From: a virus
Length of the DNA: 26,428 nt
Strand: one strand, 5' to 3'
Virus record (IMG/VR): IMGVR_UViG_3300006166_000009
Span: 1-26,428 of that record
Shown: positions 2 to 26,263 of the stretch, piece after piece
Numbering within the stretch: position 1 is the stretch's first letter
How the letters are laid out: every line of letters begins with the position of its first letter
Program-made: the position numbers and the translations under genes
Notes under the pieces: generated by a model
Told to the model about the DNA's origin: nothing
Seen by the model: the letters and a program-made list of their open reading frames with translations, nothing else
The model's database searches: none

Positions 2-124
2 AATTATTGTAAGACTTGTACCGAGTTTGTACAACCTAAAGGTCATTTTCCTATGAGAAAATATGCTAAAGTATTAACTGAATCAGAAAGATTACAAGAC
101 GAATTGGAACCAATAGATGACTAA
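2..124 (+). CDS. C-terminal end of an unidentified upstream gene (partial)
   Basis: An open frame enters from the left edge and runs 40 codons to a TAA stop, so only the C-terminus is visible. It starts within a Cys-x-x-Cys pair (YCKTC) and ends in an acidic tail (DELEPIDD). It overlaps the carbamoyltransferase start by 8 bases in another frame, the same coupling seen through the downstream operon, which argues that it is a real gene. The two cysteines could be part of a zinc or iron site, but too little is present to name a family. Product unknown. Confidence 0.6.
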   Translation, partial: NYCKTCTEFVQPKGHFPMRKYAKVLTESERLQDELEPIDD

Positions 125-1607
125 AATATTTGCAGTTGCATTAAATCTACACGACCATAATACTTATGATGGTGTCTTTCATAATCAAAGAGAAAGATAT
201 ACTAGGTTTAAACATAATCTACCATTACAGGTAGACTCTTATGCTCATCAGGAACAATTAAACACTGCTGATTATAGATTGAATAATGAATTTGTTAAAG
301 AATATTTTAAAAAAAGAGATAATGAAACATTAGCATTTACTATGACGGTGGGTGGTATTAGAATGTGTAAAGATATATTACCAAAAGAAGTATTAGATTA
401 TAAACCTAAAAAGTTATGGGATCATTATTTTGATGATGATATGTATTTTATAGACCATCATCAATCTCACGCCACTTATGCTTATATCAATTCTGGATTT
501 GATGAATCAGATATTGTTGCTATTGATGGTATTGGTTATAATTTTAGATGTATCTTTGTTGATAAAGATGGAAACATAAAAGATTTATCAAACGAATTGC
601 CAATCGGTTGGTTATGGAATCATATGTCTAAAATAACAGGATTTGGTTCGTTAGGTGCAAGTAAATTAATGGGGTTAGTTGGTTATGGAAAATTTAGTCA
701 ATACTATTATGATGTATTTGAAACAATACTTGCTGGAGAGATAACAGAAAAGAAAAATCTTCCAGGTGATGTAATTAGAATTTCCGAATATGGAAAACAA
801 GATTTAGCATTTACATTACAGAAAATTACATTAGATAAAATTAAAGAATATATCTATCCGCTTAAAACTTGCGACAATCTTTGTATTGCAGGAGGTGTTG
901 CTTATAATGGATATATGAATGAAGAATTTACAAAACATTATAAAAATGTTTTTGTTCCACCTGCTGTAGGAGATGAAGGACAAGCAATAGGAGTTTATCA
1001 ACACGCTGATTATATGATGAATGATAATGTACATAAATCAGAAACATTTGCTGGTAAAGAATATGATTATGTAGGAGATGAAAAATTAACATCTTATAAA
1101 GAAGTAGCACAAGCAATTGCTGATGGCAAGATAGTAGGTTGGTTTCAAGGTAAATCAGAAAGTGGTAATAGAGCATTAGGTAATAGAAGTATATTAGCAG
1201 ATCCAAGAAGAAAAGATATTAAAGATATAATTAACGATACTATAAAAGATAGAGAAGACTTTAGACCATTTGCACCTGTTGTATTAGAAGAGCACTATAA
1301 AAAATACTTTGATACAAATAGTCCTAGTCCTTATATGAGTAGAATATGTAAAGTTAAAACTGATAAAGTACCTGGCGTAACTCATATAGATAATACTGCT
1401 AGAATACAAACGGTTAATAAGGAACAAAATAATAAATTGTATGAATTGATAAGAGAGTTTTATGTTATCACAGGTATACCTATGTTGTTAAATACAAGTT
1501 TTAATTGCCACGAACCTATTGTAGAAACACCACAAAATGCTATAAGAACATTTAAAAGAACAGGATTAGATATGCTGATAATTAACGATTGGATTATAAG
1601 AAAATGA
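117..1607 (+). CDS. NodU/CmcH/TobZ-type carbamoyltransferase
   Basis: A 496-residue protein likely to transfer a carbamoyl group from carbamoyl phosphate, through carbamoyl-AMP, to a hydroxyl of a sugar or small molecule in the cytoplasm. The N-terminal half has the metal-site signature HHQSHA (residues 114-119) and a following AIDGIG with D137. The next conserved block is AGGVAYNGYMN (258-268), then PAVGDEGQAIG (282-292). The YrdC-like C-terminal half carries GKSESGNRALGNRSILADPR (345-364), the family signature for carbamoyl-AMP handling. It is somewhat shorter than many NodU proteins. The ATG overlaps the previous gene, and the stop overlaps the next start (ATGA at 1604). The acceptor is unknown. 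The neighbouring glycosyltransferases make a sugar or glycan acceptor plausible, which is inference. Confidence 0.9.
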   Translation: MTKIFAVALNLHDHNTYDGVFHNQRERYTRFKHNLPLQVDSYAHQEQLNTADYRLNNEFVKEYFKKRDNETLAFTMTVGGIRMCKDILPKEVLDYKPKKLWDHYFDDDMYFIDHHQSHATYAYINSGFDESDIVAIDGIGYNFRCIFVDKDGNIKDLSNELPIGWLWNHMSKITGFGSLGASKLMGLVGYGKFSQYYYDVFETILAGEITEKKNLPGDVIRISEYGKQDLAFTLQKITLDKIKEYIYPLKTCDNLCIAGGVAYNGYMNEEFTKHYKNVFVPPAVGDEGQAIGVYQHADYMMNDNVHKSETFAGKEYDYVGDEKLTSYKEVAQAIADGKIVGWFQGKSESGNRALGNRSILADPRRKDIKDIINDTIKDREDFRPFAPVVLEEHYKKYFDTNSPSPYMSRICKVKTDKVPGVTHIDNTARIQTVNKEQNNKLYELIREFYVITGIPMLLNTSFNCHEPIVETPQNAIRTFKRTGLDMLIINDWIIRK

Positions 1608-2296
1608 ATTACTTTGACACATTAGAAAAGAAAAGAAAACACGTAAGAAGATATAATATGAATAGGATACCACCTAAAGAAATGATAGAACGAGCATTAT
1701 ACAAAGCGTGGAAAACAACTCCATCTAAAAATAATTCTATGGCATATAAAGTATTAGTATGGGGTCCAGAAAAGGAATTAGAAAAAGCAGCAATACATAG
1801 TTTAGTTAGAAAATCACATATAGTTGTGGAAGAAAAAGCAGTAGAGGAAGGACTTGCTGAAACAACACAAAAGGGAGTACCAAATCCTTTTTATGAGCAC
1901 GTGATGTATAATCCATATTTATTTACCGTTCATAGTAGAGTTTCAACTCCTAATCGTTTCTATAAAGAAAAGGTTGAAGAAGGACATTTTTACGATCAAG
2001 GTTATGAACATTATATTGAAAAAGTAATTGACGCTGTTGCTGTTGAAGTTGGTATGTTTATTTCTAATTTAGGATATTACTTATTGGAAGAAGGATTGGA
2101 TATTTCTCACAATTCTTGCTTTAGGAGAAGACCTGAGCAATGGCATAATGTAGGTTTACATATGGTTAAGAGAAGACCTATAACTATGTTAAGTTGTGGT
2201 TATGCAGAAAGATATAGAACACAGGATTTAACGGATTGGGGAAAAGAAACTTGGGATATAAAACCAGAGATGAATGACATAATAAAATGGATATAG
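1604..2296 (+). CDS. Nitroreductase-fold FMN protein A
   Basis: A 230-residue protein with the layout of the FMN-dependent nitroreductase superfamily. It has an N-terminal basic stretch (RKHVRRY, residues 11-17) expected to contact FMN phosphate, then PSKNN (40-44) leading into a beta-strand. A central helix GMFISNLGYYLLEEGLD matches the family's dimer and FMN helix, and a C-terminal strand is followed by GYAERYR. A TTG 15 bases upstream is in frame, but the ATG at 1604 forms an ATGA overlap with the carbamoyltransferase stop and is the better start. It overlaps the methyltransferase by 10 bases. The substrate cannot be told: this fold covers nitro and quinone reductases, flavin-cleaving enzymes and dehydrogenases that finish peptide or sugar products. 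A second, divergent member lies at 4482-5384. Confidence 0.7.
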   Translation: MNYFDTLEKKRKHVRRYNMNRIPPKEMIERALYKAWKTTPSKNNSMAYKVLVWGPEKELEKAAIHSLVRKSHIVVEEKAVEEGLAETTQKGVPNPFYEHVMYNPYLFTVHSRVSTPNRFYKEKVEEGHFYDQGYEHYIEKVIDAVAVEVGMFISNLGYYLLEEGLDISHNSCFRRRPEQWHNVGLHMVKRRPITMLSCGYAERYRTQDLTDWGKETWDIKPEMNDIIKWI

Positions 2297-2910
2297 ATTT
2301 ACAATTATTTAAAAATATAATAGAAGAAGGAAGAAACAATACTGATTTGTTAGATTCATATAGTCCTAATCAATTTAAATCAAAAGAAACATTGATTAAA
2401 CTATTAAAGGATCAATTAATACTTGATAGTAGGAATGAAATAGTAATTTTAGGTTGTTGGTACGGTAGTATTCTGGTACCATCTTTAAAACACTCTAAAA
2501 GAATTACTGCTATAGATATAAATCCTACAACAATTAGTATTGCAAAAAATAGATTGTTTAGTCATTATGAAAATGTTGATTGGATAACAAGTGATGTGTT
2601 TGATGAAAATAGGTATGGAAGAATTAAAAATGCAAATTTAATTATTAATGCTTCTTGTGAAAATATGAAATCAATGAAAGAATTAAAACCATTGAAAGAA
2701 TCTAAATCATATTTTGCTTTTCAGTCAAATAATATGTTTGGTATCCACGATAGTGTAAATTGTGTAAAGAGTATAGATGAATTTAAAAAACAATTACCAG
2801 ATAACGCAAAAGTAATTGCTGAAGATACTCTATCAGATGATAGAGGAGTTAGATTTACATTAATAGGTAAATTACATAGTTTTGATTCTAATAGTTGGGG
2901 AATAATATGA
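2287..2910 (+). CDS. Class I SAM-dependent methyltransferase-like protein
   Basis: A 207-residue protein with a Rossmann-type SAM-binding core. Motif I is VILGCWYGS (residues 53-61), followed by the acidic end of strand beta-2 in AIDINP (D77), and then a TSDVFD segment (101-106) that fits motif III. The usual glycine-rich loop is altered (GCWYGS), so cofactor binding is likely but not certain. No DNA-methyltransferase catalytic motif (DPPY/NPPY or the Pro-Cys of C5 enzymes) is visible, so it is more likely to act on a small molecule or protein. It overlaps both neighbours: 10 bases with the nitroreductase, and an ATGA with the glycosyltransferase. It therefore probably works in the same tailoring pathway. 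Confidence 0.65.
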   Translation: MDIDLQLFKNIIEEGRNNTDLLDSYSPNQFKSKETLIKLLKDQLILDSRNEIVILGCWYGSILVPSLKHSKRITAIDINPTTISIAKNRLFSHYENVDWITSDVFDENRYGRIKNANLIINASCENMKSMKELKPLKESKSYFAFQSNNMFGIHDSVNCVKSIDEFKKQLPDNAKVIAEDTLSDDRGVRFTLIGKLHSFDSNSWGII

Positions 2911-3752
2911 AACGAGTAATATATAGCGTTTATGTTGATGTGCCATCGGAAGAACATTATGGTCAATCTAAACAAAGAAATGATACAACAGAAAAGGCAG
3001 ATATAACGGTTAATGCTTTTAAAAAACATTATGATAAATTAGTTAATACTAAAATAACATATGCTGAGTATTGTGAATCTGATTTTATTATGTTTGAATA
3101 TGATGACCAATATAAAACTTTTGAAACGAATTTTAAGAAAGACTTTCCTGAATTAACTGGTTATGAAATAATTAATTTCTATAAAATACATTTACTATAT
3201 CATTTAGCAGAAAATTATGACGAGATACTATATTTAGATTTTGACGCTGTACCTTTAACAGATGAATCATTTTTTGATCGTTGGGATTTATCAAAAGGTA
3301 TGTGTGTATATAATAACAACTCTATGGTTAAAAAAGATAGACTTATTAATCATAGTATTAGAAGTCCAACAGCAAAGTATTTCAATTGTCAAGCAATGCT
3401 TATAGATAAAGGACTTGGCGCTAGAAATGATGTTATCAATACAGGTATCATTGGTGCTAGTAGAGAAGATATACTTAAATTAGATTTCTTTGGTGGGTTT
3501 AAAGATACAATAGATTTGATGACAAGATTGAGAAGTGATACAAGTTTATATCCTCAAAACATTGTTGATATGTTTAGATATGATAATGAAACAATCTTTT
3601 CATACAAGAGAGAGATTAATAAAATTAAATTACAATGGTTAGATAATCAATGGCATTATTTTTTAGATACTCAAAATTTTATACCAGAAGAAATAAAAAT
3701 AGTACATTGTGTCTGTAAAGATTTTGATTTAGTTTGGAGAAGATATGCTTAA
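2907..3752 (+). CDS. GT-A fold glycosyltransferase-like protein 1
   Basis: A 281-residue protein when started at the ATG that overlaps the previous stop (ATGA at 2907). An upstream in-frame TTG at 2895 is less likely. The key feature is a hydrophobic strand ending in a DxD metal and nucleotide-sugar motif, EILYLDFDAVPL, with D111 and D113. It is followed by an acceptor-side region containing an NTGIIGAS segment, a layout common in GT8-like and capsular sugar transferases. No signal peptide or membrane segment is visible, so the enzyme should be cytoplasmic. Its donor and acceptor are unknown. It is larger than and only distantly like the two other GT-A-like proteins of the operon (3745-4482 and 5381-5947). 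Confidence 0.65.
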   Translation: MKRVIYSVYVDVPSEEHYGQSKQRNDTTEKADITVNAFKKHYDKLVNTKITYAEYCESDFIMFEYDDQYKTFETNFKKDFPELTGYEIINFYKIHLLYHLAENYDEILYLDFDAVPLTDESFFDRWDLSKGMCVYNNNSMVKKDRLINHSIRSPTAKYFNCQAMLIDKGLGARNDVINTGIIGASREDILKLDFFGGFKDTIDLMTRLRSDTSLYPQNIVDMFRYDNETIFSYKREINKIKLQWLDNQWHYFLDTQNFIPEEIKIVHCVCKDFDLVWRRYA

Positions 3753-4482
3753 AATATGTACCGTGTATCATAAAGGTTTTTATACACCAGATTATGTATC
3801 AAAGTTATATAGAAGTTTAAAAAGAAACTCATCTATACCTTTTGAGTTTGTTTGTATAAGTGATACAGATGTTGAGGCAGATGTTGTACTACCTTATAAT
3901 CACTATGACAAGATTAAGAAACATTGGCACAAATTAAAATACTTTAGTCCAAATTTCGCTTATCAAAAACCTGGAGATGACATTATAGTTATGGATATTG
4001 ACCAAGTGATTACGGGCAATGTAGATGACCTTTTAGGTTATCCTGTACAAGATAATGAAATGATTACTTATGGTATATGGTGGGAATCAAAGTTAAAAAC
4101 AAATGGTGGGTTTTATAAGTTTAAATCTGGTAGTTTAAAGTATGTGTGGGACGACTTTGCTGAAAATCCTGACTATTGGCAATTACATTATTACAATAAC
4201 GGTGATGTTCATACAAAATATTATGGAGAACAAAATTATGTTAATTGGAAGATACAAGAATATAAAACTAAATTAACTAGAACACCTGAGCAATGGATAT
4301 GTAAATACTCAACTGACTTTAAAGAAAACCTTGCTTTAAATAAATCATATTGTAAAAAATTCAATACAGATTATATGATATTAGGAGATGTTAATAAATA
4401 TATTAAAGTAATACATTTTACAGGACCAGGTAAAACTATACACGAACATAAGGACGATTTCATAAAGGAGTATTGGAAGTAA
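3745..4482 (+). CDS. GT-A fold glycosyltransferase-like protein 2
   Basis: A 245-residue protein starting with a strand and turn typical of nucleotide-sugar binding folds. Residues 58-90 contain a Trp-His-Lys-Leu-Lys-Tyr-Phe element and then IIVMDIDQVITGNVDDLL, with a DxD at D84/D86. The later GGFYKFKSGS and YYGEQNYVNW segments resemble the acceptor region of small capsular or LPS-type transferases. The start overlaps the preceding gene by 8 bases, and the TAATG junction at 4480-4484 couples it to the next gene. The arrangement of a W-x-K-F element before the DxD is shared with the 5381-5947 protein, so the two are probably paralogues. Donor and acceptor are unknown. Confidence 0.65.
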   Translation: MLKICTVYHKGFYTPDYVSKLYRSLKRNSSIPFEFVCISDTDVEADVVLPYNHYDKIKKHWHKLKYFSPNFAYQKPGDDIIVMDIDQVITGNVDDLLGYPVQDNEMITYGIWWESKLKTNGGFYKFKSGSLKYVWDDFAENPDYWQLHYYNNGDVHTKYYGEQNYVNWKIQEYKTKLTRTPEQWICKYSTDFKENLALNKSYCKKFNTDYMILGDVNKYIKVIHFTGPGKTIHEHKDDFIKEYWK

Positions 4483-5384
4483 TGAAAGATCATTGGAAAG
4501 AGAATTGGAAAGATTTAACTTATTTAAGAGATGAGAAAGAAACAGGAATTAAGAATATGTTTTATGATTGGAATGATGAAATGGAAACTATCCGTAAAAT
4601 ACAAAAGTGCCAAAGAGTTTGGGATCATAAAAGAACAATTGCAAAAGAAGTTATAGATTATCTATTATGGGTTGCTCAAAATGCTCCTTCAAAACAACAC
4701 GAAGCATATTATGATGTTTATTGGACTGCTGATAGAAAAGTATTAGATGAGTTATCAAAATATACTTGGGGATGTACTCATAATCGTATGCCTCCATCAA
4801 CTTGGCAAAACTCACAAATGAACGCTAATCTATATATTTTATTTGTTGGAAAAGAACCAGATACAAATTTAAACTGCCACGCAGATGGTACAGAAAAATC
4901 TAATACAGATATTGCTCGTTGGGAAAATGCTTATGTTAGTGTAGGTATTGCTATGGGTTTAGTTATGAGGACGGCTGCTAAAATAGGTTTTTCTACTGGT
5001 TGCAATAAAAGTCATAATGATATAAATGGTGATAAATTTTGGGAAAAGAAATTAGGAATACTTGATGATGTTAAAGCAGGTAAAAAGAAAATAACATATG
5101 GTATTGGTATTGGATATCCTAAAGAAGGAGTTGAAAGGTGGGAATCAGATCAAACAGAATTGGCTATTGGCGCTGGAAATGGTAGTAATTTAGCTACAGA
5201 TATAACACTAGATAAAAATGAAAATGGCAAAATATTTAGAAAAATTAAGATAGTTAATATTAAAGAAAATGCTGGTAAACAAATGCAAGACCCTAATGGT
5301 GATTGGCATATGATACCAGAAAAAGCAGATATTAAAATTAATACTATGAGAATAAGACATATAAATTGTACGGAAATTAAATGA
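4482..5384 (+). CDS. Nitroreductase-fold FMN protein B
   Basis: A 300-residue protein, longer than most nitroreductases. The recognisable core is QRVWDHKRTIAKEVIDYLL (residues 44-62) running into AQNAPSKQHEAYYDVYW, which matches the R-x-x-R...A-x-x-APS-x-x-x...V pattern. A central helix ENAYVSVGIAMGLVMRTAAK fits the FMN and dimer helix, followed by GFSTGCNKSH and the strand ITYGIGIGYP. The last 90 residues after GIGYP are an extra domain of unknown role. The chosen ATG at 4482 sits in a TAATG overlap, and the TTG at 4473 is less likely. It lies between two glycosyltransferase genes and ends in an ATGA overlap. It is not a recent duplicate of the 1604-2296 protein, because the sequences differ beyond the fold signature. 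Confidence 0.65.
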   Translation: MKDHWKENWKDLTYLRDEKETGIKNMFYDWNDEMETIRKIQKCQRVWDHKRTIAKEVIDYLLWVAQNAPSKQHEAYYDVYWTADRKVLDELSKYTWGCTHNRMPPSTWQNSQMNANLYILFVGKEPDTNLNCHADGTEKSNTDIARWENAYVSVGIAMGLVMRTAAKIGFSTGCNKSHNDINGDKFWEKKLGILDDVKAGKKKITYGIGIGYPKEGVERWESDQTELAIGAGNGSNLATDITLDKNENGKIFRKIKIVNIKENAGKQMQDPNGDWHMIPEKADIKINTMRIRHINCTEIK

Positions 5385-5947
5385 GAATAATATGTTGTAA
5401 GTTTGGTAATAAATTTACTGATTGGCACATTAAAAATTTGAAACATATGATAGACACTTATTCAGGTCTAAAGTATGATAGTTTTGAAGTTATCAAAAAT
5501 AACTTGTATGGTAATTGGTATAATAAATTTCAAATGTATAATTTGTTTAGAAGTGGAGAAAATTTATACTTTGATTTAGATGTTATTATCTATGATAAAC
5601 TACCAAATTTAATTAGAAAAGATTTTACATTGTTAGATGATACTTGGTGGAGACCAAATTTTGGACATACACCATTAAACTCTTCCGTTGTATCTTGGAC
5701 AGGTGATGTATCTCATATATGGAAAAAGTTTAGGTCTAATGATGAATATTACTTAAAGAAATATTATAAAGGTAGTGATGAGTTTTATTATAAAGAAATA
5801 GACTATAAAACATACGATAAAGTTTGTCCAAGATTTAAAGAAACTAAAGATGAAGATTATAGTATGTGTACACTAGGTCAATTACATCATATAATGGAAG
5901 AAGGTTGGACTGGTTGGTGGACGCCTTATTTTATACCTCATAAATAG
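5381..5947 (+). CDS. GT-A fold glycosyltransferase-like protein 3 (short)
   Basis: A 188-residue protein with the same core as the glycosyltransferase at 3745-4482: a W-Y-N-K-F element, then GENLYFDLDVII with a DxD at D65/D67. It ends with Trp-rich sequence (GWTGWWTPYF). At 188 residues it is short for a complete GT-A enzyme and may have a reduced acceptor domain, so activity is less sure than for the other two. The ATG overlaps the nitroreductase stop (ATGA at 5381), and only four bases separate its stop from the next ATG. It is probably co-expressed with the rest of the operon. Confidence 0.6.
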   Translation: MRIICCKFGNKFTDWHIKNLKHMIDTYSGLKYDSFEVIKNNLYGNWYNKFQMYNLFRSGENLYFDLDVIIYDKLPNLIRKDFTLLDDTWWRPNFGHTPLNSSVVSWTGDVSHIWKKFRSNDEYYLKKYYKGSDEFYYKEIDYKTYDKVCPRFKETKDEDYSMCTLGQLHHIMEEGWTGWWTPYFIPHK

Positions 5948-5951
5948 ATAT

Positions 5952-6332
5952 ATGTTAGTTAAATGCGAAAAAGGAATTAGTACAGGATATATGGCATACA
6001 CAGCAAAATGGATAGTAAAAAATAAAAAAGTAGATTTAATTTTTACTTCTTTATCTAATTTTTGGTCTATTGTAGAAAATGATGAATCAGCGATGGTTCA
6101 ACATTCCATTTTAAATAGAAGATATACAATGGATAAAGGTGGATTTTTAGCAAAAGATGGAAAAACAATTTTGTATTGGATGATGTTTAGAAATGAAGAT
6201 GATTATAAAAGGTGGTCTGAAGCATATAAAAAATTACCTCCTATTGATGAAGATTTAGAGTGGGCTGAAATTGAAGAAATGGATACAGAAAAGTACATTC
6301 CTTATAGGGATGGAAAACCATTTTCAGTATAA
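5952..6332 (+). CDS. Hypothetical protein, 126 aa
   Basis: No family was recognised. The protein begins with a short strand-rich region (KWIVKNKKVDLIFTSLSNFW), has a central KDGKTILYWMMFRNEDDYKRWSEAYKKL stretch (positions about 69-96) and ends acidic. The alternation of a short strand with an aromatic helix (YKRWSEAYKKL) recalls small ferredoxin-like or antibiotic-monooxygenase-like folds, but that is only a shape impression. It has no signal peptide or membrane segment. It sits between a glycosyltransferase and the probable iron oxygenase with very short gaps, so it is likely part of the same operon. Confidence 0.55.
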   Translation: MLVKCEKGISTGYMAYTAKWIVKNKKVDLIFTSLSNFWSIVENDESAMVQHSILNRRYTMDKGGFLAKDGKTILYWMMFRNEDDYKRWSEAYKKLPPIDEDLEWAEIEEMDTEKYIPYRDGKPFSV

Positions 6333-6344
6333 GAGTTTAAAATT

Positions 6345-6989
6345 ATGAATGATGATGATAAGGCGTTATTGCGTCTAAACACAATGTCTGATTGGATAGA
6401 GTTTCCAAGTTTCAAAAAAGATAAATTGTTAGAAGAATTAAAACCTTTTGAAAAAGATTGGAAAAGGTATAATTATAATACAAAGAAACCAAACAATCGC
6501 TGGGGATTAAGTGTAACTAGTATTGATGGTGGACTTCACGGCGTTCCTGATTTATCAAGTTTAAGAGATTGGGAAACACAAACAGGTGAAGTAATACACA
6601 ACCACGACTTAAATGTTCCAACAGATGTTTGGAAAAAATGTCCAACACTACAAACAATTTTAGAACCTTGGAAGAAATGGTTAGGTCGTTGTCATTTTTT
6701 AAGAATGGATAGAGGCAGTTATTTTCCAGAACACTTTGATATTAATAAAGAAGATTATAGTTATGATGAAGTTAGATTTGTTGGGTTTGTTAAATGTAAT
6801 GAATATGACTTTAAATGGATTTATGATGATAAAGTTATAAAAGGTAATAGTGGTTCTCTTTGGTATTTTAATGGCAATAAAAGACATAGTGTTTTTTCAT
6901 TTTCAGATGGAATAGTTTTATTAGTTATGTGTTTAAAATTTGATAAAGAGTTGTTTCAAAAGATGTTGGAGTATGGTAGGGTAAAATAA
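6345..6989 (+). CDS. Probable non-haem Fe(II)/2-oxoglutarate oxygenase-like protein
   Basis: A 214-residue protein. The suggestive feature is a double-stranded beta-helix pattern. An HxD pair (H130-F-D132) follows RMDRGSYFPEH, then comes a strand with RFVGFVKC, and a distal histidine appears in SLWYFNGNKRHSVFSFSDG (H181) followed by a hydrophobic strand. This is the layout of aspartyl/asparaginyl beta-hydroxylase-like and other 2OG-Fe(II) oxygenases, which hydroxylate proteins or small molecules and are common in marine T4-like phages. A clear arginine for 2OG binding after the distal His is not obvious, so cofactor use is uncertain. The AAGAG at 6331 supports the ATG at 6345. The TAATG overlap at 6987-6991 couples it to the TctA gene. 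A cupin of other function is the main alternative. Confidence 0.55.
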   Translation: MNDDDKALLRLNTMSDWIEFPSFKKDKLLEELKPFEKDWKRYNYNTKKPNNRWGLSVTSIDGGLHGVPDLSSLRDWETQTGEVIHNHDLNVPTDVWKKCPTLQTILEPWKKWLGRCHFLRMDRGSYFPEHFDINKEDYSYDEVRFVGFVKCNEYDFKWIYDDKVIKGNSGSLWYFNGNKRHSVFSFSDGIVLLVMCLKFDKELFQKMLEYGRVK

Positions 6990-8257
6990 TGCTTTCTTTG
7001 TTATGGTGTTTATGTGGAATATTATCAGGAGTTCTTTTTGGAGTAATACCTGGTGCAGGACCTTTTTTAGCAATCGCAACATTATATCCTTTACTACTTA
7101 TTTTAGACCCTTTTAATATATTACTATTTTATATTTCACTCCTTATTACAACAAATTATACCAATTCAGTAACAGGTATTCTTTATGGAATACCAGGTGA
7201 CGCTACCGCTGTAACTACTGCTAGACACGGACATAATTTATTCTTAAAAGGAGAAGGACATCTTGCAGTAAGTACCAATGCTATTTCAAGTACAATAGGT
7301 TCTATTTTTGCAATATGTTTATTTCTATTATTTCTTCCTAGTATCTACAACATATTTCAGTTTTATAATAGCACAATACAACTTTCTATTATAGTATTAG
7401 CAGTTTTATTATTAACTCTATTATCAAAACAAAAGATGTGGAAGACTATACTTCTATTTCTATTTGGTGGTATATTAGCAAAGATAGGGTTTGATAATCA
7501 ATCATATGAAACTTGGGGAACATTTGGTATTGATTATTTAACTTTAGGTATTCCTTTTAGTGCTGTGATGATTGGGTTGTATATTATACCTGAATTATTA
7601 AAATTTAAAGATGTTAAAATTACTAAACAAAAAGAGATTAAGAAATTTGGTATAGCAAAGAGTACATTACCTTCAACAGGTATAGGTAGTTTTGTTGGGT
7701 TTTGGTGTGGTCTTATTCCAGGAGTAACTAATATTTTAGGAAGTTATTTAAGTTCTAGTTTAGTTAAGACAGATATAAAGAAAATATCGGCAGCAGAATC
7801 AGCAAACAATAGTGGTGCGTTAAGTTCTTTATTACCTTTAATCATACTTGGCATACCGATTGTAGGTAGTGAGGTATTAGTTTATTATTTAATTGTAACT
7901 AAAGGTTTCACTTTTGGTATAGAAACAATGTCCCATTTTACTAATATATTTTATTACATACCAATCATATTAATAGTATGTTTAATATTATCTTGGAGTT
8001 GTTTTAATCTATTAGGTCAATTAGCACATCTATATAAGAAACATAAAAATAAATTGATATATGGTATTGTATTGTTCGTTTCTATAATGAGTATTTACAT
8101 TTATCCAGTAAGAGAGTGGTTGTTAATAACATTGATTGTATTAAGTATAATAGGTTATTATTTAAAGAGAGTAGATACTTTTCCAATACTATATGGATTT
8201 TTCTTAACAGATTTGTTTTGGGATAACTTAATGAGAGTAATGATAATATACGGATGA
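6989..8257 (+). CDS. tctA: TctA-family permease of a tripartite tricarboxylate transporter
   Basis: A 422-residue polytopic inner-membrane protein, shorter than the roughly 500 residues usual for TctA. Family marks are clear in both inverted halves. The first half has GVLFGVIPGAGP (residues 14-25), ILYGIPGDATAVTTARHGH (64-82) and KGEGHLAV. The second half has GLIPGVTNILGSYLS (241-255) and AAESANNSGALSSLLPLIIL, LGIP (268-290), matching the TctA EAANNA...PLLTLGIP block. TctA is the large channel subunit that normally works with a small four-helix TctB and a periplasmic TctC to take up citrate or other carboxylates using the ion gradient. No TctB is seen in this window, but a TctC-like gene lies nearby on the opposite strand. 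The stop overlaps the ATP-grasp start (ATGA at 8254). Confidence 0.88.
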   Translation: MLSLLWCLCGILSGVLFGVIPGAGPFLAIATLYPLLLILDPFNILLFYISLLITTNYTNSVTGILYGIPGDATAVTTARHGHNLFLKGEGHLAVSTNAISSTIGSIFAICLFLLFLPSIYNIFQFYNSTIQLSIIVLAVLLLTLLSKQKMWKTILLFLFGGILAKIGFDNQSYETWGTFGIDYLTLGIPFSAVMIGLYIIPELLKFKDVKITKQKEIKKFGIAKSTLPSTGIGSFVGFWCGLIPGVTNILGSYLSSSLVKTDIKKISAAESANNSGALSSLLPLIILGIPIVGSEVLVYYLIVTKGFTFGIETMSHFTNIFYYIPIILIVCLILSWSCFNLLGQLAHLYKKHKNKLIYGIVLFVSIMSIYIYPVREWLLITLIVLSIIGYYLKRVDTFPILYGFFLTDLFWDNLMRVMIIYG

Positions 8258-9429
8258 AAAATTTAATACTAGGATATCCAAGAGGTCGGCACAGATTTCA
8301 ATGCCTTGAAACAGCATTGGATAGTTGTGATATAGTTACTGAAAATTTTGATAAGATAAAAGGACCATACGATAGAATTTTTACAATATCAGAAAGTTTA
8401 TTACCTATACAAGCTAAGTTAGAGAAACAATGGGGATTAAAAAATGTATCAGAAAGAGCTGCAGATATATTATCTGATAAAAAGAAATTTGATGATTTAT
8501 GTATTAGTATAGGCCTTCAAAGTTTAATACCTCATAATGTCATACCTACAAAACCAGATCATTTAGATTATTGGAAAGATAAACCTTTTATAGTAAAACC
8601 TGTTATTGGTTCAGGTAGTAAACCTGGAGGTTTAAACTATCTTTCTTTTAAAAATAAGAAAGAGTTTTTATCATATTGTTTAAACAATAAAATATTTGAT
8701 TTTTTTACTAACAATGAAAAGGGTTGGGAAGATCCACAATTTAACAATCGTATTAATTATTATATAATACAAGATCAACTTCCAAATACTGCTAAAATTT
8801 GGGCTCCATATTGTTATGTAAATAATAGTGGAGTTATAAAAGATTTATTATGGGTAAGAGGTAAAGTTTGGTATAATCAAATAGACAAATATAGATATGA
8901 AACTAAAGCAGCTGAGTGGATGAGTTTTGATGAGAAAGATGTACCAGACGATATAAAATTATATTCTGATCGTTTTTATAATAAAGTAATTAATAATCTA
9001 CAATTAAGAAATATGTTTTTTTCTGGACCTGATTTTTATAAATGGGAAGATAATATTAAGATGATAGATTGCAATCCAAGAATTGGTCAAGGTCTACAAC
9101 AAATGGATGATGTACATAACAATACAATAGTTTCAAAAATTATAAATGATAAACCATATTCTTTTGACAAACAAATGCTATGGAAAATTTCTAAATTAAA
9201 ACCAGGTAAGATAAAATCTGTAAAAGATGTATCTCACTTAAAGAAATATTGGGTTAAAACTAATAATGATAGATTAAGACCTGGAGAAACAATACTAGAA
9301 TATACTCAAATTACTTCCGAAAGAGTTCCTAGAATAGCTTTTTTAATAACTGGTACTAACGAATCCGATATGTATAAAACATATCAGACCGTTAATGACC
9401 AACTTCAAAGTTGTATTGAATATTATTAA
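8254..9429 (+). CDS. ATP-grasp carboxylate-amine ligase-like protein
   Basis: A 391-residue protein with two diagnostic parts of the ATP-grasp fold. A strand and glycine-rich loop, FIVKPVIGSGSKPGG (residues 112-126), holds the nucleotide-binding lysine. The Mg-ATP site is in SGPDFYKW (257-264) and KMIDCNPRIGQG (269-280), with D260, D272 and N274. The N-terminal 100 residues would form the pre-ATP-grasp domain. Enzymes of this class activate a carboxylate as an acyl phosphate and join it to an amine or other nucleophile. The substrate is not evident. Its start is fused by ATGA to the stop of the TctA permease, so the imported carboxylate may be its substrate, which is inference. Its stop codon overlaps the stop of the convergent TctC-like gene. 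Confidence 0.75.
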   Translation: MKNLILGYPRGRHRFQCLETALDSCDIVTENFDKIKGPYDRIFTISESLLPIQAKLEKQWGLKNVSERAADILSDKKKFDDLCISIGLQSLIPHNVIPTKPDHLDYWKDKPFIVKPVIGSGSKPGGLNYLSFKNKKEFLSYCLNNKIFDFFTNNEKGWEDPQFNNRINYYIIQDQLPNTAKIWAPYCYVNNSGVIKDLLWVRGKVWYNQIDKYRYETKAAEWMSFDEKDVPDDIKLYSDRFYNKVINNLQLRNMFFSGPDFYKWEDNIKMIDCNPRIGQGLQQMDDVHNNTIVSKIINDKPYSFDKQMLWKISKLKPGKIKSVKDVSHLKKYWVKTNNDRLRPGETILEYTQITSERVPRIAFLITGTNESDMYKTYQTVNDQLQSCIEYY

Positions 9430-10208
9430 TTAGTGTTTAGTTCAATAGCAGAGTTCACTTTATTAACTAGTGAATCTTTATTACCATTATCTAAAACATA
9501 AGTGACCGTTCCTGCAAATGCAGTTTGCCACGCTTCAGTAGTTATTAAATCTTTAACAACTTTTCTGAAATTTTCAATTGTTCCATTTTCAGCATTAACT
9601 GATAATAGTACATCAACAAAAGCAAAATCTAAATCGCCATTAGCACTAAAAGCAATACAATTTCCGTCTGCCTCTACTTTAGATTGTTTAGTTTGAATTG
9701 TAAAAATTGTATCAGCGTCTTTACCTAGATAACCTCTAACCGTATCTCCACTTCCACCGTAAGGTACGATTTCAAATGTAGTGTTGTTTGCTTTACCTAG
9801 ATTTTCAATAAACTTACTAACAGCAGGAGAATCTCCCCAGGTTGCTATTTTAATAGTCTTACCACTCATATCAGATAATGAATTGAAAGTACGACTACAA
9901 AGTATAGTTTCGTATGCTTGAACAGCAACGATTGTACTTGCGTCTATTGTTACCGATGGCATTGATTCATCACCAGGCCATTCTGTACTCCACATAGTCA
10001 AAACATTGCCTTTATCAAAGTGTGTTTTTGCTATAATGGGATTGTTTGCTTGTATAAATTTATGATTGTTTAGTTTGTCGCCAATCATAGTTAAAACTTG
10101 ATGAAATGCGCCAGAATCACTTCCTGCATTTACTATTGTTGCTGATCCTCCAGCGATTGCTGTATGAGACCATAATAACATCAATATTGTGATTAAATAT
10201 TTCTTCAT
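9426..10208 (-). CDS. tctC: TctC/Bug-like periplasmic solute-binding protein
   Basis: A 260-residue protein with a clear Sec signal peptide: MKKYL, a hydrophobic core, then a TAIA cleavage site with the mature protein from about G20. The body resembles the Bug/TctC receptor family, most clearly in KIATWGDSPAVSKFIENLGK (residues 120-139) and FEIVPYGGSGDTVRGYLGKD (145-164), equivalent to the VPYKGG...LLGG ligand-domain block. It is shorter than the roughly 320 residues usual for the family. It should capture a carboxylate-like ligand in the periplasm and hand it to TctA/TctB. This is the only minus-strand gene in the window, with its own sigma70-like promoter and a GAGGAA ribosome site at 10211-10216. 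A related type II binding protein, such as a TAXI type, is the alternative. Confidence 0.7.
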   Translation of the reverse strand: MKKYLITILMLLWSHTAIAGGSATIVNAGSDSGAFHQVLTMIGDKLNNHKFIQANNPIIAKTHFDKGNVLTMWSTEWPGDESMPSVTIDASTIVAVQAYETILCSRTFNSLSDMSGKTIKIATWGDSPAVSKFIENLGKANNTTFEIVPYGGSGDTVRGYLGKDADTIFTIQTKQSKVEADGNCIAFSANGDLDFAFVDVLLSVNAENGTIENFRKVVKDLITTEAWQTAFAGTVTYVLDNGNKDSLVNKVNSAIELNTN

Positions 10209-10303: not shown

Positions 10304-10311
10304 TATAAATA
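10304..10311 (+). promoter_or_regulatory. T4-type late promoter TATAAATA
   Basis: An exact TATAAATA, the -10 element used by the T4 late sigma factor gp55, lies upstream of the first virion gene of the module. The expected start is near 10317, leaving a short leader with AGGAG at 10331-10335 before the ATG at 10342. It shares a 133-base intergenic region with the divergent sigma70 promoter. Confidence 0.75.
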
Positions 10312-21384: not shown

Positions 21385-21398
21385 TATAAATATAAATA
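21385..21398 (+). promoter_or_regulatory. Two overlapping late promoters
   Basis: TATAAATATAAATA again gives two late motifs (21385-21392 and 21391-21398). AGGAG at 21415-21419 lies nine bases before the ATG at 21429. This is the last late promoter seen before the bilin genes and so the probable source of their mRNA. Confidence 0.7.
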
Positions 21399-21428: not shown

Positions 21429-22922
21429 ATGGCTAGTTTATCAAATTTATTGGGCGGAAGTGGCGGAACAATAGACCACAGAAAAGAAGGACTTCCATTA
21501 TTCGGTATATGGGGAGACAACGGCGACCAAAACCACAATGTTAATTACCGAATATATGACTCAGGTTTCAACAATGTAGGGTCACCTTGGGCTGCAGTAT
21601 GTAACTCAACAACTAACTATCGTTTTGGTATGTTAGCAGACGCTTCACACTCATATGGATACAATGACCACGGTACAGATGTATCGCATTGTAACTTCAC
21701 ATCACAAGACTATACGACTTGGACTTGTTATAACAAATCACTTTACCAATGTGACCAATATCCTTGGGCACAATATTACACATCTTCTAAAGATGGTTTT
21801 ATATCTTGGCACTCATATCACCAAATTAGTTCTTCTTTTGAATGGACTTCTGCTTGGAGTAAATTAAATCACGTGCTTCCTGAAGGTATCAGACCAAGAA
21901 GATTGTTTACAAATAGAAGACAAACAATGAGAGAATTAACACCTGGTCAGGCTGCAGGTAATGGTCAAAAAGATTATTACGATTATTCTACTCATATGCT
22001 TAATACAGACCAAACATACGCAACTGGTACTGGTTACAATGAGAAAAACAAAATGCTTGTTATGGTTCACTCTGGTGATGAAGGTGGAAATACTTCAAAA
22101 ACTATTCACATTTTCAAATCAAGTAAATGTTTAAATCAAGTAGATAAAATTTCAGAATACTTTGCTGCTTTAACATCTACTGAATACTTTACTGACACTT
22201 GGACAATCAATAACAACAAAAATATTTGTGTTGCTGTTGGTAATAACGAGTGGGTTGGTTTCGGATACAAAAACGGTAACTCAATGAAATACGCTGCTTA
22301 CAATTGTAAGAACGGAACATCATTAGGAACTACTGCTGCTGCTAGAGTTTATATTGGTTGGCAAGATTTTGCTGGATCAACTACAACATCTTATAGTGCT
22401 GAAAACTCTAACTACCTATATACTAAATTCAATCATACTTGGGATGGTACTTGGGGAATGATTTACGGTGCTTACTACTACTACGGAGTTGGTATCAATG
22501 CTTTCTGTATGAGTTTAGAAAATCCTAGAAAGTTTATAAGTATTAACCAGACTAAATCTAGTCGTGCTAATCCTTATTTGGCTTGGGGCAGAACTGGATT
22601 CCACGGTGGCTATTCTGATAACACAGATGGTGAATCTTGGAGAACATATTGTTGGTCATTTGATCCTAAAGACTCAGATCACACGGTAGATACTAGAGTT
22701 TATTACGGAAATGATAACTCTAATACTACTAATCCTGATGGAAACGGTGCTTCTACATCAACAACGATTACAAACAAAACTGGTAATCACGGTTTAGGTT
22801 CTTATTACAACTACCTACACGGTGGATATCAATCTACGGTTTATCCTCTAATGACACAAATTGATTGGTGGGGTAACTATGGTAATGGTGATAGTAGATA
22901 CGGTGGAAAACACGGCGAATAA
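21429..22922 (+). CDS. Aromatic-rich putative receptor-binding protein, 497 aa
   Basis: A 497-residue protein unusually rich in Tyr, Trp, Asn, Gly and His (for example IYGAYYYYGVGINAF). After MASLSNLLGGSGG it has a succession of short aromatic strands and several paired cysteines, with no recognised catalytic motif, signal peptide or membrane segment. The composition, size and position at the end of the fibre cluster fit a tail tip that binds a surface glycan or protein. I do not recognise the family. It sits under a double late promoter with a good AGGAG site. Beta-propeller-like repetition is possible (W-x-x-x-x-N turns) but not regular enough to assert. Confidence 0.65.
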   Translation: MASLSNLLGGSGGTIDHRKEGLPLFGIWGDNGDQNHNVNYRIYDSGFNNVGSPWAAVCNSTTNYRFGMLADASHSYGYNDHGTDVSHCNFTSQDYTTWTCYNKSLYQCDQYPWAQYYTSSKDGFISWHSYHQISSSFEWTSAWSKLNHVLPEGIRPRRLFTNRRQTMRELTPGQAAGNGQKDYYDYSTHMLNTDQTYATGTGYNEKNKMLVMVHSGDEGGNTSKTIHIFKSSKCLNQVDKISEYFAALTSTEYFTDTWTINNNKNICVAVGNNEWVGFGYKNGNSMKYAAYNCKNGTSLGTTAAARVYIGWQDFAGSTTTSYSAENSNYLYTKFNHTWDGTWGMIYGAYYYYGVGINAFCMSLENPRKFISINQTKSSRANPYLAWGRTGFHGGYSDNTDGESWRTYCWSFDPKDSDHTVDTRVYYGNDNSNTTNPDGNGASTSTTITNKTGNHGLGSYYNYLHGGYQSTVYPLMTQIDWWGNYGNGDSRYGGKHGE

Positions 22923-22948: not shown

Positions 22949-23227
22949 ATGGATTATTACTTTAGAAAAACAACTGGTGAACCTTTTACTGGAAATGCTG
23001 TAGCAGGTGATGACGCAGTTGCAAAAGGCCAGGCAGTTAAAAAAACTGGAATTACAGACGGAATTGAGTCTTGGAGATTATCTTTAGACGGTTCAGGTAA
23101 TGTAGTTATTTTTGCTGAAGGCAAGAATGAGGCAGACGCTCAAACTCAAAAAGAAGAAGAAAGAGTTGCTCAAACTGCTGCTGATAAGAAAATAGAAGAA
23201 GACTTTTTAGCAACTTTATCTAGTTAA
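22949..23227 (+). CDS. Small protein with C-terminal coiled coil, 92 aa
   Basis: A 92-residue protein with an N-terminal beta part (YYFRKTTGEPFTGNAVAGDD, then WRLSLDGSGNVVIFAEGK) and a helical Glu/Lys/Ala-rich tail (residues about 60-90). This plan, placed directly after a receptor-binding gene, is like small tail-fibre assembly chaperones, but no specific family is recognised. AAGGAA eight bases before the ATG is the ribosome site. Its stop lies 30 bases before the haem oxygenase start. It could also be a minor virion protein. Confidence 0.6.
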   Translation: MDYYFRKTTGEPFTGNAVAGDDAVAKGQAVKKTGITDGIESWRLSLDGSGNVVIFAEGKNEADAQTQKEEERVAQTAADKKIEEDFLATLSS

Positions 23228-23257: not shown

Positions 23258-23911
23258 ATGTACGACATTAAAGAGCTCACAAAAGAGATTCATCAAAACG
23301 CTGAACGACAAGAGTTTGTAAAAACTCTAATGAGTGGTACGATTCGTCCTGAATTGTACGCTATCTATTTGTATAATCAGTTACAATGTTATTCTGTACT
23401 AGAGAAGTATGGAATGCACAATGACTTGTTTAGACAGACACCTGGTCTACAAAGAGCAGAAAACATACATAGAGATTACAAAAAATTGTGGCCTGATCTA
23501 TCAAACCCACCTCGTATAACTGATAGTACAAAAAAATACATAGAACATATAGAAACTATACAAGACGATCCAGAAAAATTATACGGACACATTTATGTTA
23601 GACATTTAGGTGATCTATCTGGTGGTCAAATGATTTCTAAAAAAGTACCTGTCAAAGCTTATTATGATTTTCAAGGCAAAGGACAAGAGTATAAAAGAAT
23701 TGTAAAAGAAATCATAAACGAATATTTAAACACATACCAAATTAATGTTATGGCTGAAGTAGAGTATGCTTTTAAATCAGCTACAAATTTATTTATTGAG
23801 ATGAATGAAATCGGTAAACCTCTAGTGTTGACAGATGAAGTTTATAATGAAGACAATAGAGATACAGAAAAAGATCCTTTCAAAGGAACAAGTATTGAAG
23901 GCAAAGACTAA
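23258..23911 (+). CDS. ho1: Haem oxygenase (biliverdin-forming)
   Basis: A 217-residue cytoplasmic enzyme expected to open haem to biliverdin IXalpha, releasing CO and iron, with electrons from ferredoxin. The proximal haem ligand is H12 in EIHQNAE (the family's H-x-x-A-E), followed by FVKTLMSGTI. The distal helix holds YVRHLGDLSGGQ (113-124) with the flexible G-D-L-S-G-G that lets oxygen bind. Length matches bacterial and cyanobacterial HO1. The last 30 residues are an acidic tail beyond the usual domain. The stop and next start form TAATG, so it is translationally coupled to the bilin reductase, its natural partner. No clear ribosome site or own promoter precedes the ATG at 23258. It probably relies on read-through from the fibre genes. 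Confidence 0.93.
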   Translation: MYDIKELTKEIHQNAERQEFVKTLMSGTIRPELYAIYLYNQLQCYSVLEKYGMHNDLFRQTPGLQRAENIHRDYKKLWPDLSNPPRITDSTKKYIEHIETIQDDPEKLYGHIYVRHLGDLSGGQMISKKVPVKAYYDFQGKGQEYKRIVKEIINEYLNTYQINVMAEVEYAFKSATNLFIEMNEIGKPLVLTDEVYNEDNRDTEKDPFKGTSIEGKD

Positions 23912-24591
23912 TGATTTGGGATAGATTAGTTAAATTAGAAAAAGAAATTATTGAAATATTTGATAAACACTTGGTTGAATATAATGAACCAGGTATGGAT
24001 AGATTTAATCAACCAGGTTGGGTAAATCGTACTTGGTCTAATATGAGTATTAGACGAGCACACATTGATGTTGTGGATGCCAGAGAAACTAAAGGTCTTT
24101 GGATGGCACACATATGTTTATTTCCAATGTTAGAAAATGGAGGACCTATTTACGGTTTTGATATTATTGCAGGTAAGAAAAAAGTTACAGGCGCATTCCA
24201 CGACTTTAGTCCACTATTATTAAAAGAACATCCCTTAACAAAATATTTTATAGAAGAAAATAAATGGTTTAAACCAAGTAAAGAGAGAGAACTACCAGAT
24301 TGGGCAAAGGCAATCTTCAGTAAAGGTATGATTGCCGCTGGGAATATTACGGAAGAGAAAGAGTTAAATCAAATATGTACATTAGCAGTAGCAAATTTAA
24401 ACGCATATATTGATAAAATAAGTCATTTTAATAGTGATTCTAAAAAAGAAGATGTAATAAGAGCACAAAATTTCTATTGCGAACATCAACAACAGAATCC
24501 ACATACACCTAGAACAATGAAATCACTAGGTTTACCAGAGGATGATATAAAGTTATTTTGTGCTGATAATCTCTTTCCTACCATTAAATAA
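23911..24591 (+). CDS. pcyX: Ferredoxin-dependent bilin reductase, PcyX type
   Basis: A 226-residue bilin reductase. The PcyA-like core is visible: RRAHIDVV, WMAHICLFP, PIYGFDIIAG, AFHDFSPL (residues 48-102), and the C-terminal NFYCEHQQQNPHTPRT (187-201). Aligned by eye to PcyA, H67 and D84 match the catalytic His88 and Asp105, while PcyA Glu76 is Asp (D53). A kept Asp-His pair with Glu changed to Asp is the published mark of PcyX, which makes phycoerythrobilin from biliverdin in one four-electron enzyme. The product here is thus probably phycoerythrobilin. Electrons must come from host ferredoxin, as none is encoded in the window. The gene follows ho1 with a TAATG overlap. PcyA itself is the main alternative; PebS is far less similar in the motifs. 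Confidence 0.88.
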   Translation: MIWDRLVKLEKEIIEIFDKHLVEYNEPGMDRFNQPGWVNRTWSNMSIRRAHIDVVDARETKGLWMAHICLFPMLENGGPIYGFDIIAGKKKVTGAFHDFSPLLLKEHPLTKYFIEENKWFKPSKERELPDWAKAIFSKGMIAAGNITEEKELNQICTLAVANLNAYIDKISHFNSDSKKEDVIRAQNFYCEHQQQNPHTPRTMKSLGLPEDDIKLFCADNLFPTIK

Positions 24592-24595
24592 TTCT

Positions 24596-24603
24596 TATAA
24601 ATA
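24596..24603 (+). promoter_or_regulatory. T4-type late promoter of the neck genes
   Basis: An exact TATAAATA after the bilin reductase stop. AAGGA at 24615-24619 precedes the gene 13 ATG at 24625. The neck-gene mRNA can thus be made without the bilin genes. Confidence 0.72.
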
Positions 24604-24624: not shown

Positions 24625-25446
24625 ATGGCAGTACCATCTACACGAGAAACATTAAAGCAATACGCATTAAGAGCATTGGGTAAACCAGTGATTGAAATTA
24701 ATGCTGATGACGACCAATTAGAAGATAGAATAGACGAAGCCGTACAATATTTTCAACAATATCATTATGACGGTATTAGAAGAACATATCTAAAATACAA
24801 ATTAACAGCAGCTGATAAAGCTCGTTTAACTGGTTTAAATGCTTCTAGTGAAACAAAATCAGATTTAAAAGATACTTCAGTTTCAACAACTTGGTATGAA
24901 GATAATAATTATCTTGTAGTACCAGAGACCGTTCTTTCTATCATTAATATATTTCCAATTACAAATAAAGGTAATATGAATCTATTTGATGTTAGGTATC
25001 AATTAAGATTAAATGACCTGTATGATTTTTCTTCAACATCTATAATTAACTATGATGTTGTATTAAGACATTTAGATTTTTTAGATCATATACTTGTAGG
25101 TGAAAAACCTATGAGATTTAATCAACACGACAATAGATTATATATTGATATGGATTGGTCAAATGATTTACAAGAAGATGAGTACCTAGTAATAGAATGT
25201 TATAGAAGATTAGATCCAAATACTTATACAGATGTTTTCAATGACATTTATTTAAAAAGATATACTACTGCTCTATTCAAAAAACAATGGGGTGCTAACT
25301 TATCTAAATTTAATGGAGTTGCAATGGTTGGTGGCGTAACTTTAAATGGACAACAAATATATTCTGAAGCACTTGCTGATATAGAAAAATTAGAAACAGA
25401 AATAAGAACTACTTACGAATTAAACCCAGCCTTTATGATAGGATAA
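24625..25446 (+). CDS. gp13: Neck protein gp13 (T4-like)
   Basis: A 273-residue homologue of T4 gp13, which with gp14 forms the neck ring that closes the filled head and connects it to the tail. The N-terminal stretch (MAVPSTRETLKQYALRALGK, then PVIEINADDDQLEDRIDEAV) is the strongly conserved start in marine T4-like phages. It continues with YFQQYHYDG and a later RYTTALFKKQWGANLSKF block. T4 gp13 is about 309 residues, so this is a somewhat shorter form. It is the first gene after a late promoter, with a good AAGGA site, and is directly followed by gene 14, matching T4 order. Confidence 0.88.
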   Translation: MAVPSTRETLKQYALRALGKPVIEINADDDQLEDRIDEAVQYFQQYHYDGIRRTYLKYKLTAADKARLTGLNASSETKSDLKDTSVSTTWYEDNNYLVVPETVLSIINIFPITNKGNMNLFDVRYQLRLNDLYDFSSTSIINYDVVLRHLDFLDHILVGEKPMRFNQHDNRLYIDMDWSNDLQEDEYLVIECYRRLDPNTYTDVFNDIYLKRYTTALFKKQWGANLSKFNGVAMVGGVTLNGQQIYSEALADIEKLETEIRTTYELNPAFMIG

Positions 25447-25450
25447 TACT

Positions 25451-26263
25451 ATGCCAGTTAATCATTACTTTCAAGGTGGAAACGGCATTGGTAATCAAAA
25501 CGAGAAAAGACTTTACGAAGACTTAATCGTGGAGGGGCTAAAGATTTACGGCCACGATGTTTATTACCTGCCAAGAACACTAGTCAATAGAGATTTAATT
25601 CTAGGAGAAGATACAACTTCTCGTTTTGATGACTCTTGGATGGTAGAGATGTATGTAGAATCAACTGAAGGTTTTGCAGGTCAACAAGAAATAGTTTCAA
25701 AATTTGGTTTAGAGATTAGAGAAGACACAACATTTATGGTGTCTAAAAGAGCTTGGGACTATCACGTGGGATTAAAAGATAGTTTAATTGCTACAGGTAG
25801 ACCAAACGAAGGTGATATAATTTACTATCCTTTGATGAACTCATTTTTTGAGATTCAATTTGTTGAAGATCAGGAACCTTTCTTTGCGTTAGGTCAATTA
25901 CCAGTTTACAAATTAAGAGTGACTCGTTGGGAGTATTCTTCGGAAGGATTGAATACTGGTTTAGAGGCAATAGATGGTGCTGAAGACAAGTACACATTAA
26001 ATCAATTAAATTACAAATTTAGTTTAGAGAGTGGTCAAGTTGCTTTAGATGGTGAAGGATCAATACTATTAGAACAAGATTTACCATCAGGAGAGCCTAC
26101 TTTCTTAATGAACGAAGACTTTACAGCATCCGCATTACAAACTCAATCATCTTATGCTTCTAATACAGATTTGGATACTGAAGCAGGTTTTGATACATCA
26201 TCAGCGCTAGATGATATATTAGACTTTACAGAAAGAAATCCATTTGGAGATGAGGATAATTAA
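25451..26263 (+). CDS. gp14: Neck protein gp14 (T4-like)
   Basis: A 270-residue homologue of T4 gp14, the partner of gp13 in the head-to-tail neck. The start MPVNHYFQGGNGIGNQNEKR, followed by LYEDLIVEGLKIYGHDVYYLP and the RDLILGEDTTSRFDDSW block (residues about 48-64), is the typical family N-terminus. The C-terminal 70 residues are acidic and Ser/Thr-rich, as in marine versions, and finish with DFTERNPFGDEDN. Length is close to T4 gp14 (about 256). AGGA at 25440-25443 is the ribosome site inside the end of gene 13. Its TAA overlaps the next ATG. Confidence 0.88.
   Translation: MPVNHYFQGGNGIGNQNEKRLYEDLIVEGLKIYGHDVYYLPRTLVNRDLILGEDTTSRFDDSWMVEMYVESTEGFAGQQEIVSKFGLEIREDTTFMVSKRAWDYHVGLKDSLIATGRPNEGDIIYYPLMNSFFEIQFVEDQEPFFALGQLPVYKLRVTRWEYSSEGLNTGLEAIDGAEDKYTLNQLNYKFSLESGQVALDGEGSILLEQDLPSGEPTFLMNEDFTASALQTQSSYASNTDLDTEAGFDTSSALDDILDFTERNPFGDEDN

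Follow-up and report, generated by a model that had tools for sequence, protein, structure and literature searches.

Marine hemO–pcyX cassettes, in which a haem oxygenase gene is paired with the gene for a ferredoxin-dependent bilin reductase (FDBR) of the PcyX type, have been assigned to pelagiphages by gp13 phylogeny (Wegner et al., 2024; PMC11480375). Asp55 is described as the PcyX-specific catalytic residue in the same study, where the function of the bilin in a heterotroph is posed as an open question and called enigmatic. The products of bilin reductases are not always predictable from phylogeny and single residues (PMC13193486). The locus analysed here lies in a linear virus record of 26,428 bp, referred to below as the window. 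The initial annotation tied PcyX to a T4-like phage of non-cyanobacterial type; this link is right, but it had already been published (PMC11480375).

Gene order, phage affiliation and inheritance

The haem oxygenase gene hemO (217 residues) occupies positions 23258–23911 and pcyX (226 residues) positions 23911–24591, both on the plus strand. The open reading frames and the Pfam matches, both above cut-off (PF01126, Heme_oxygenase, 3.9e-21; PF05996, Fe_bilin_red, 1.6e-16, 61 bits against a cut-off of 31) agree on the two linked genes that had been proposed initially. The genes overlap by a single base at position 23911 of the plus strand (TAATG), where the final A of the hemO stop codon TAA also serves as the first base of the reductase start codon ATG, and this one-base overlap suggests translational coupling. 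Viral loci were testable where 800 nt or more of sequence precede the reductase gene; in 84 of these 84, hemO is found ahead of it on the same strand, an arrangement far beyond chance, and no hemO homologue without a reductase was found among 30 testable loci. Median pairwise dN/dS values, from pairs that are not independent, are 0.14 for pcyX, 0.24 for hemO and 0.16 for gp13; both cassette genes are under purifying selection. In relatives, a methyltransferase, 2OG oxygenase or porin-like gene sometimes lies inside or after the pair. A gene for a 215-residue SAM-dependent methyltransferase separates hemO from the FDBR gene in three loci (L016, L026 and L033), and in one subclade a 358-residue porin-like protein is encoded between pcyX and gp13 (L129, positions 6867–7943; also L125 and L133); the label porin-like refers to a signal peptide and a β-rich appearance by eye, without a Pfam match.

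Upstream of the cassette, orf497 (21429–22922, plus strand) encodes a putative fibre or receptor-region protein that is conserved in this position and gave no match in Pfam and PHROG searches. It is followed by orf92 (22949–23227, plus strand), which encodes a small protein of unknown function and keeps its position before hemO in relatives. Downstream, on the same strand, are the neck protein genes gp13 (24625–25446; head–tail adaptor Ad2; PHROG 211, 8.9e-43) and gp14 (25451–26263; head closure Hc2; PF11649, 5.1e-36; PHROG 460, 5.2e-68). The phage location given in the initial annotation thus holds for the fibre-like genes on the left and gp13–gp14 on the right. It does not hold for gp15, as the window ends 165 nt past gp14; gp15 follows gp14 in Pelagibacter phage Mosig.

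Among isolates, Mosig comes closest in hemO (64% identity), the reductase (76%) and gp14 (67%), and its gene order is the same, in keeping with the T4-like, non-cyanobacterial phage proposed at the outset. For gp14 it is followed by HTVC008M (39%) and, at 37%, by the OM43 phage Melnitz. With its neck protein gp14 closest to that of a Pelagibacter myophage, the window falls into the pelagimyophages of the Mosig/HTVC008M group, and a cyanophage origin is rejected, the closest relatives being those of a pelagiphage. From gp13, gp14 and the relation to Mosig, the phage is very probably a Mosig-like T4-type phage infecting SAR11 (Pelagibacterales). Scans of the window for tRNA genes and Rfam families returned nothing, and the 26 kb fragment holds no other host link.

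Carriage of the cassette was counted in gp13 relatives that had been collected independently of it and had upstream sequence. The reductase is carried by 18 of 18 relatives with at least 90% gp13 identity and by ten of 11 with 85–90%; below 85%, 18 have it, 23 lack it and five are unclear. On a gp13 tree, four changes of cassette state were counted against a mean of 18.6 with shuffled labels; the tree includes loci fetched via the reductase, which biases the cassette frequencies on it. Other genes occupy the slot in relatives without the cassette: 2OG oxygenases and a ferrochelatase-like gene in HTVC008M, and fibre genes in Melnitz. The slot is variable between clades, and within the gp13 clade of the window the cassette is stable and inherited. 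The pigment cassette reported initially is present, but its description as inserted was overstated.

Elsewhere in the window, a TctA-family permease gene (6989–8257, plus strand) lies near a periplasmic binding-protein-like gene (9426–10208, minus strand). The permease has 29 relatives in IMG/VR, several of them on contigs with hemO–pcyX, and no close match in a phage isolate. A cluster of carbamoyltransferase, methyltransferase, glycosyltransferase and two nitroreductase-like genes (117–6989) is possibly a surface or tailoring module.

The two enzymes and a lineage in jumbo phages

The window reductase is 75% identical to the crystallized PcyX_EBK42635 (5OWG) and 76% identical to the Mosig protein; cyanophage reductases reach only 24–30%, with cyanophage PcyA at most 30%. 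The residues D53 (Asp for the Glu of PcyA), H67 and D84 had been singled out correctly in the initial annotation: they align with Asp55, His69 and Asp86 of 5OWG, the numbering offset of 2 arising from a two-residue gap at 'RFNQP--GWV'. Among the viral loci fetched, Asp is found at position 53 in all 61 distinct PcyX-type sequences and Glu in all five cyanophage PcyA sequences, and the catalytic His and Asp are invariant. The D/H/D signature is retained in every pelagiphage-type and jumbo-type sequence examined (seven of seven for the latter), and the alphaproteobacterial and cyanobacterial sequences carry Glu.

Placement was assessed in a maximum-likelihood tree of 58 reductases, of which the local arrangement alone was used as several branches are long and that of PebS is very long. 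The window groups with 5OWG and Mosig in a pelagiphage-type PcyX group (support 92/84) within a clade of all phage PcyX (100/98). Phage PcyX is sister to alphaproteobacterial reductases carrying Glu (joint clade 100/99), and the PcyX clade of the window is separate from cyanobacterial PcyA, PebA, PebB and PebS. The phylogeny that had been proposed as a check consequently puts the window inside the PcyX clade and not with PcyA, and the PcyX identity is borne out by the tree, the D/H/D signature and the identity to 5OWG. In the same tree, the FDBR of Nonlabens xiamenensis (L205, a Flavobacteriaceae genome) groups with cyanophage PcyA, a possible case of horizontal transfer.

Signature and tree led us to reject a PcyA identity, D53 standing at the equivalent of the PcyA residue Glu76. 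That the enzyme is functionally a PcyA and makes phycocyanobilin is improbable. The NCBIfam PcyA model is its best library match, yet it scores 79 of 206 bits, far under the cut-off. CB_2, the sole characterized freshwater phage reductase of the wider group, does form phycocyanobilin, but this activity is attributed to the absence of Asp55 (PMC11480375), and the window enzyme has Asp at this position and lies with 5OWG in the PcyX clade.

The haem oxygenase aligns with solved haem oxygenases and has both the proximal His (H12) and the distal-helix motif GDLSGG (residues 118–123), as in canonical haem oxygenases of the HO-1/HmuO family (proximal His and GDxSGG). H12 and the G118-D119-x-x-G122 core are conserved among its relatives. 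It is 64% identical to the Mosig enzyme and about 28–30% identical to cyanophage HemO.

By analogy with characterized relatives, from which the products are taken, the pair likely converts haem to phycoerythrobilin via biliverdin. HemO would open haem at the α-meso carbon to give biliverdin IXα, CO and Fe2+, and PcyX would reduce biliverdin to 15,16-dihydrobiliverdin and then to phycoerythrobilin in two two-electron steps with electrons from ferredoxin. Among the phages searched, a 2Fe-2S ferredoxin was found in Mosig only; a 177 kb relative gave none, and the donor is therefore assumed to be a ferredoxin of the host. Gene identity, phage type and enzymatic route, leaving the purpose aside, are jointly held with high confidence.

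A genome scan returned three contigs of metagenome-assembled genomes (MAGs) with reductases at 54–59% identity. One of these, L161, spans 335 kb, comes from a Neomarinimicrobiota MAG and carries a T4-type gp23 that shares 65–69% identity with the capsid proteins of such jumbo phages as PA5oct and Phosso. It is a phage contig misbinned in a bacterial MAG, and for this contig the gp23 rules out bacterial carriage of PcyX. The other two contigs, L160 and L162, share the gene order of L161, which points to a phage origin for them as well; a search of their genomes found no gp23. Ten viral contigs (L246–L255) of up to 357 kb carry relatives of the jumbo-type reductase, and the order bS21–IMPDH/GMP reductase–Hsp20–ClpS–hemO–FDBR is found in most contigs of this lineage. 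An ALA synthase gene is present on jumbo-lineage contigs of 335, 357 and 93 kb. A second PcyX lineage exists in uncultured jumbo phages (335–357 kb, PA5oct-type capsid), and hemO–pcyX is no peculiarity of pelagiphages. An incomplete search of the literature found no paper linking jumbo phages to bilin synthesis.

Late-promoter-like motifs around the cassette

The window has ten copies of the motif TATAAATA, the T4 late promoter core, all of them on the plus strand. The raw count is by itself not unusual, but nine of the ten copies lie no more than 60 nt ahead of a gene start (binomial P of about 2e-10). Plus-strand sites just 5′ of late genes are at 10304, 10901, 13833, 19177, 20710, 20716, 21385, 21391 and 24596. 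They include two overlapping T4-type late-promoter-like motifs 5′ of orf497 (21385–21398) and one motif 29 nt 5′ of gp13 (24596–24603).

The arrangement recurs in relatives: the motif stands before the orf497 homologue in all 26 distinct sequences and before gp13 in 49 of 58. It is found upstream of none of 60 hemO and none of 71 pcyX genes, and is also absent upstream of orf92 and gp14 in relatives. The motif also stands before late genes in Mosig (seven of nine) and HTVC008M (nine of ten); in Mosig, which encodes a putative late sigma factor, it lies 28 nt upstream of gp13. A scan for sigma70 promoters around the cassette gave 31 against 34.5 expected.

Since the motif precedes orf497 and gp13 and never hemO or pcyX, the cassette is probably part of a late operon, orf497–orf92–hemO–pcyX, that starts at orf497. 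The pair would then be transcribed late, by read-through from the T4-type late promoter 5′ of orf497, and the next predicted late promoter stands in front of gp13. Prediction of late promoters in pelagimyophages failed in a metagenomic study (PMC7029224), and the pattern therefore appears to be new.

Role of the bilin and comparison with known systems

For the purpose of the cassette in a heterotroph, we tentatively prefer, over iron release, a reading in which the bilin itself is the product needed late in infection and has a non-photosynthetic role. In a wider form, put forward with more reserve, a haem-to-phycoerythrobilin module, sometimes joined by ALA synthase, would be common to pelagimyophages and PA5oct-type jumbo phages, two distant T4-like groups of heterotrophs, and would be expressed late without a light-harvesting or phytochrome acceptor from the phage; the bilin would act late in infection as an effector unrelated to photosynthesis, for instance by countering oxidants, by screening light or by regulating a host protein. 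That both phage lineages strictly keep the PcyX signature speaks for the bilin, and not iron alone, as the product. So does ALA synthase, as making and then breaking haem gives no net iron; besides the jumbo phages, it is encoded in one pelagiphage-type subclade (L035–L043), where it lies some 3.4 kb past the start of gp13. No ALA synthase was seen near the cassette in close relatives of the window, including the sibling contig L001, in which it is absent up to 4.7 kb from the start of gp13, so iron release is a serious rival. In that case, Fe2+ released by HemO from the haem of the host during late infection would supply iron enzymes or virions, and PcyX would only clear biliverdin. Such haem catabolism is possible, though we hold it to fall short of an even chance. 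The predicted late expression of the cassette agrees with it, as does the abundance of 2OG-Fe(II) oxygenase genes near this slot in Mosig and HTVC008M, and an iron-supply role has been discussed (PMC11480375). Yet, by the median dN/dS values given above, the constraint on pcyX is no weaker than that on hemO, and pcyX is never lost from hemO loci, which is more than expected of a dispensable sink, and a net iron gain is unlikely in those cassette-bearing phages that have ALA synthase. In the Ferrojan-horse idea, iron is bound by HxH motifs in phage fibre-region proteins; none of the fibre-region proteins of the window has an HxH motif.

The preferred reading, a non-photosynthetic bilin, also has to be set against two readings linked to light. 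That the cassette provides the chromophore for a photoreceptor, of the host or of the phage, is unlikely. A functional phytochrome can be assembled with phycocyanobilin made by the CB_2 phage enzymes (PMC11480375), but domain searches for a phage-encoded acceptor, phytochrome or phycobiliprotein, came back empty. The records searched, most of which may be incomplete, gave no PHY domain for Mosig (141 kb), for the 177 kb relative or for any other phage contig, and no phycobilisome domain for Mosig or the large phage contigs. SAR11 bacteria are not known to carry phytochromes. A cyanophage-type cassette that serves phycobilisomes, the role proposed for pebS/ho1, is highly improbable; cyanophages such as P-SSM2 (pebS) do encode the same pathway, but the neck proteins, HemO and the reductase of the window are all closest to Pelagibacter phage, and the cyanophage matches of HemO and the reductase are far more distant. 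The strict coupling of the two genes, their strong purifying selection and the predicted late operon indicate that this pathway, familiar from photosynthesis, is in real use by abundant phages of heterotrophic bacteria in the ocean. The role of the bilin in a non-photosynthetic virocell becomes testable in the Mosig/HTCC1062 culture system.

The pathway of the window is shared with the T4-like marine cyanophages (ho1–pebS, pcyA). Their reductases differ in belonging to other clades, with Glu in PcyA and Asn at the His position in PebS, PebA and PebB, and their cassettes differ in genomic place and in having cyanobacterial hosts. Alphaproteobacterial FDBRs (Falsiroseomonas and relatives) form the sister group of phage PcyX in the tree (compare the AX clade; PMC10151467) but have Glu at position 53 and are encoded in cellular genomes, one of which, when checked, contained phytochrome genes. 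In Pelagibacter phage Mosig EXVC030M (MT647606) the order hemO–FDBR–gp13–gp14 (Mosig_00051 to Mosig_00054) is that of the window. Unlike the window, Mosig has three 2OG-Fe(II) oxygenase genes, an endonuclease V gene and a ferrochelatase-like gene upstream of hemO and its ferredoxin gene elsewhere in the genome, and its HemO lacks the C-terminal extension of the window protein. The published marine pelagiphage cassette (PMC11480375; 5OWG) is matched in the gene pair, its order, Asp55 and the gp13-based pelagiphage assignment; the window differs from it in having no visible ALA synthase gene beside the cassette and in its upstream neighbours, orf497 and orf92. The window is a well-resolved example of this known cassette, to which the jumbo-phage lineage and the predicted late operon are additions.
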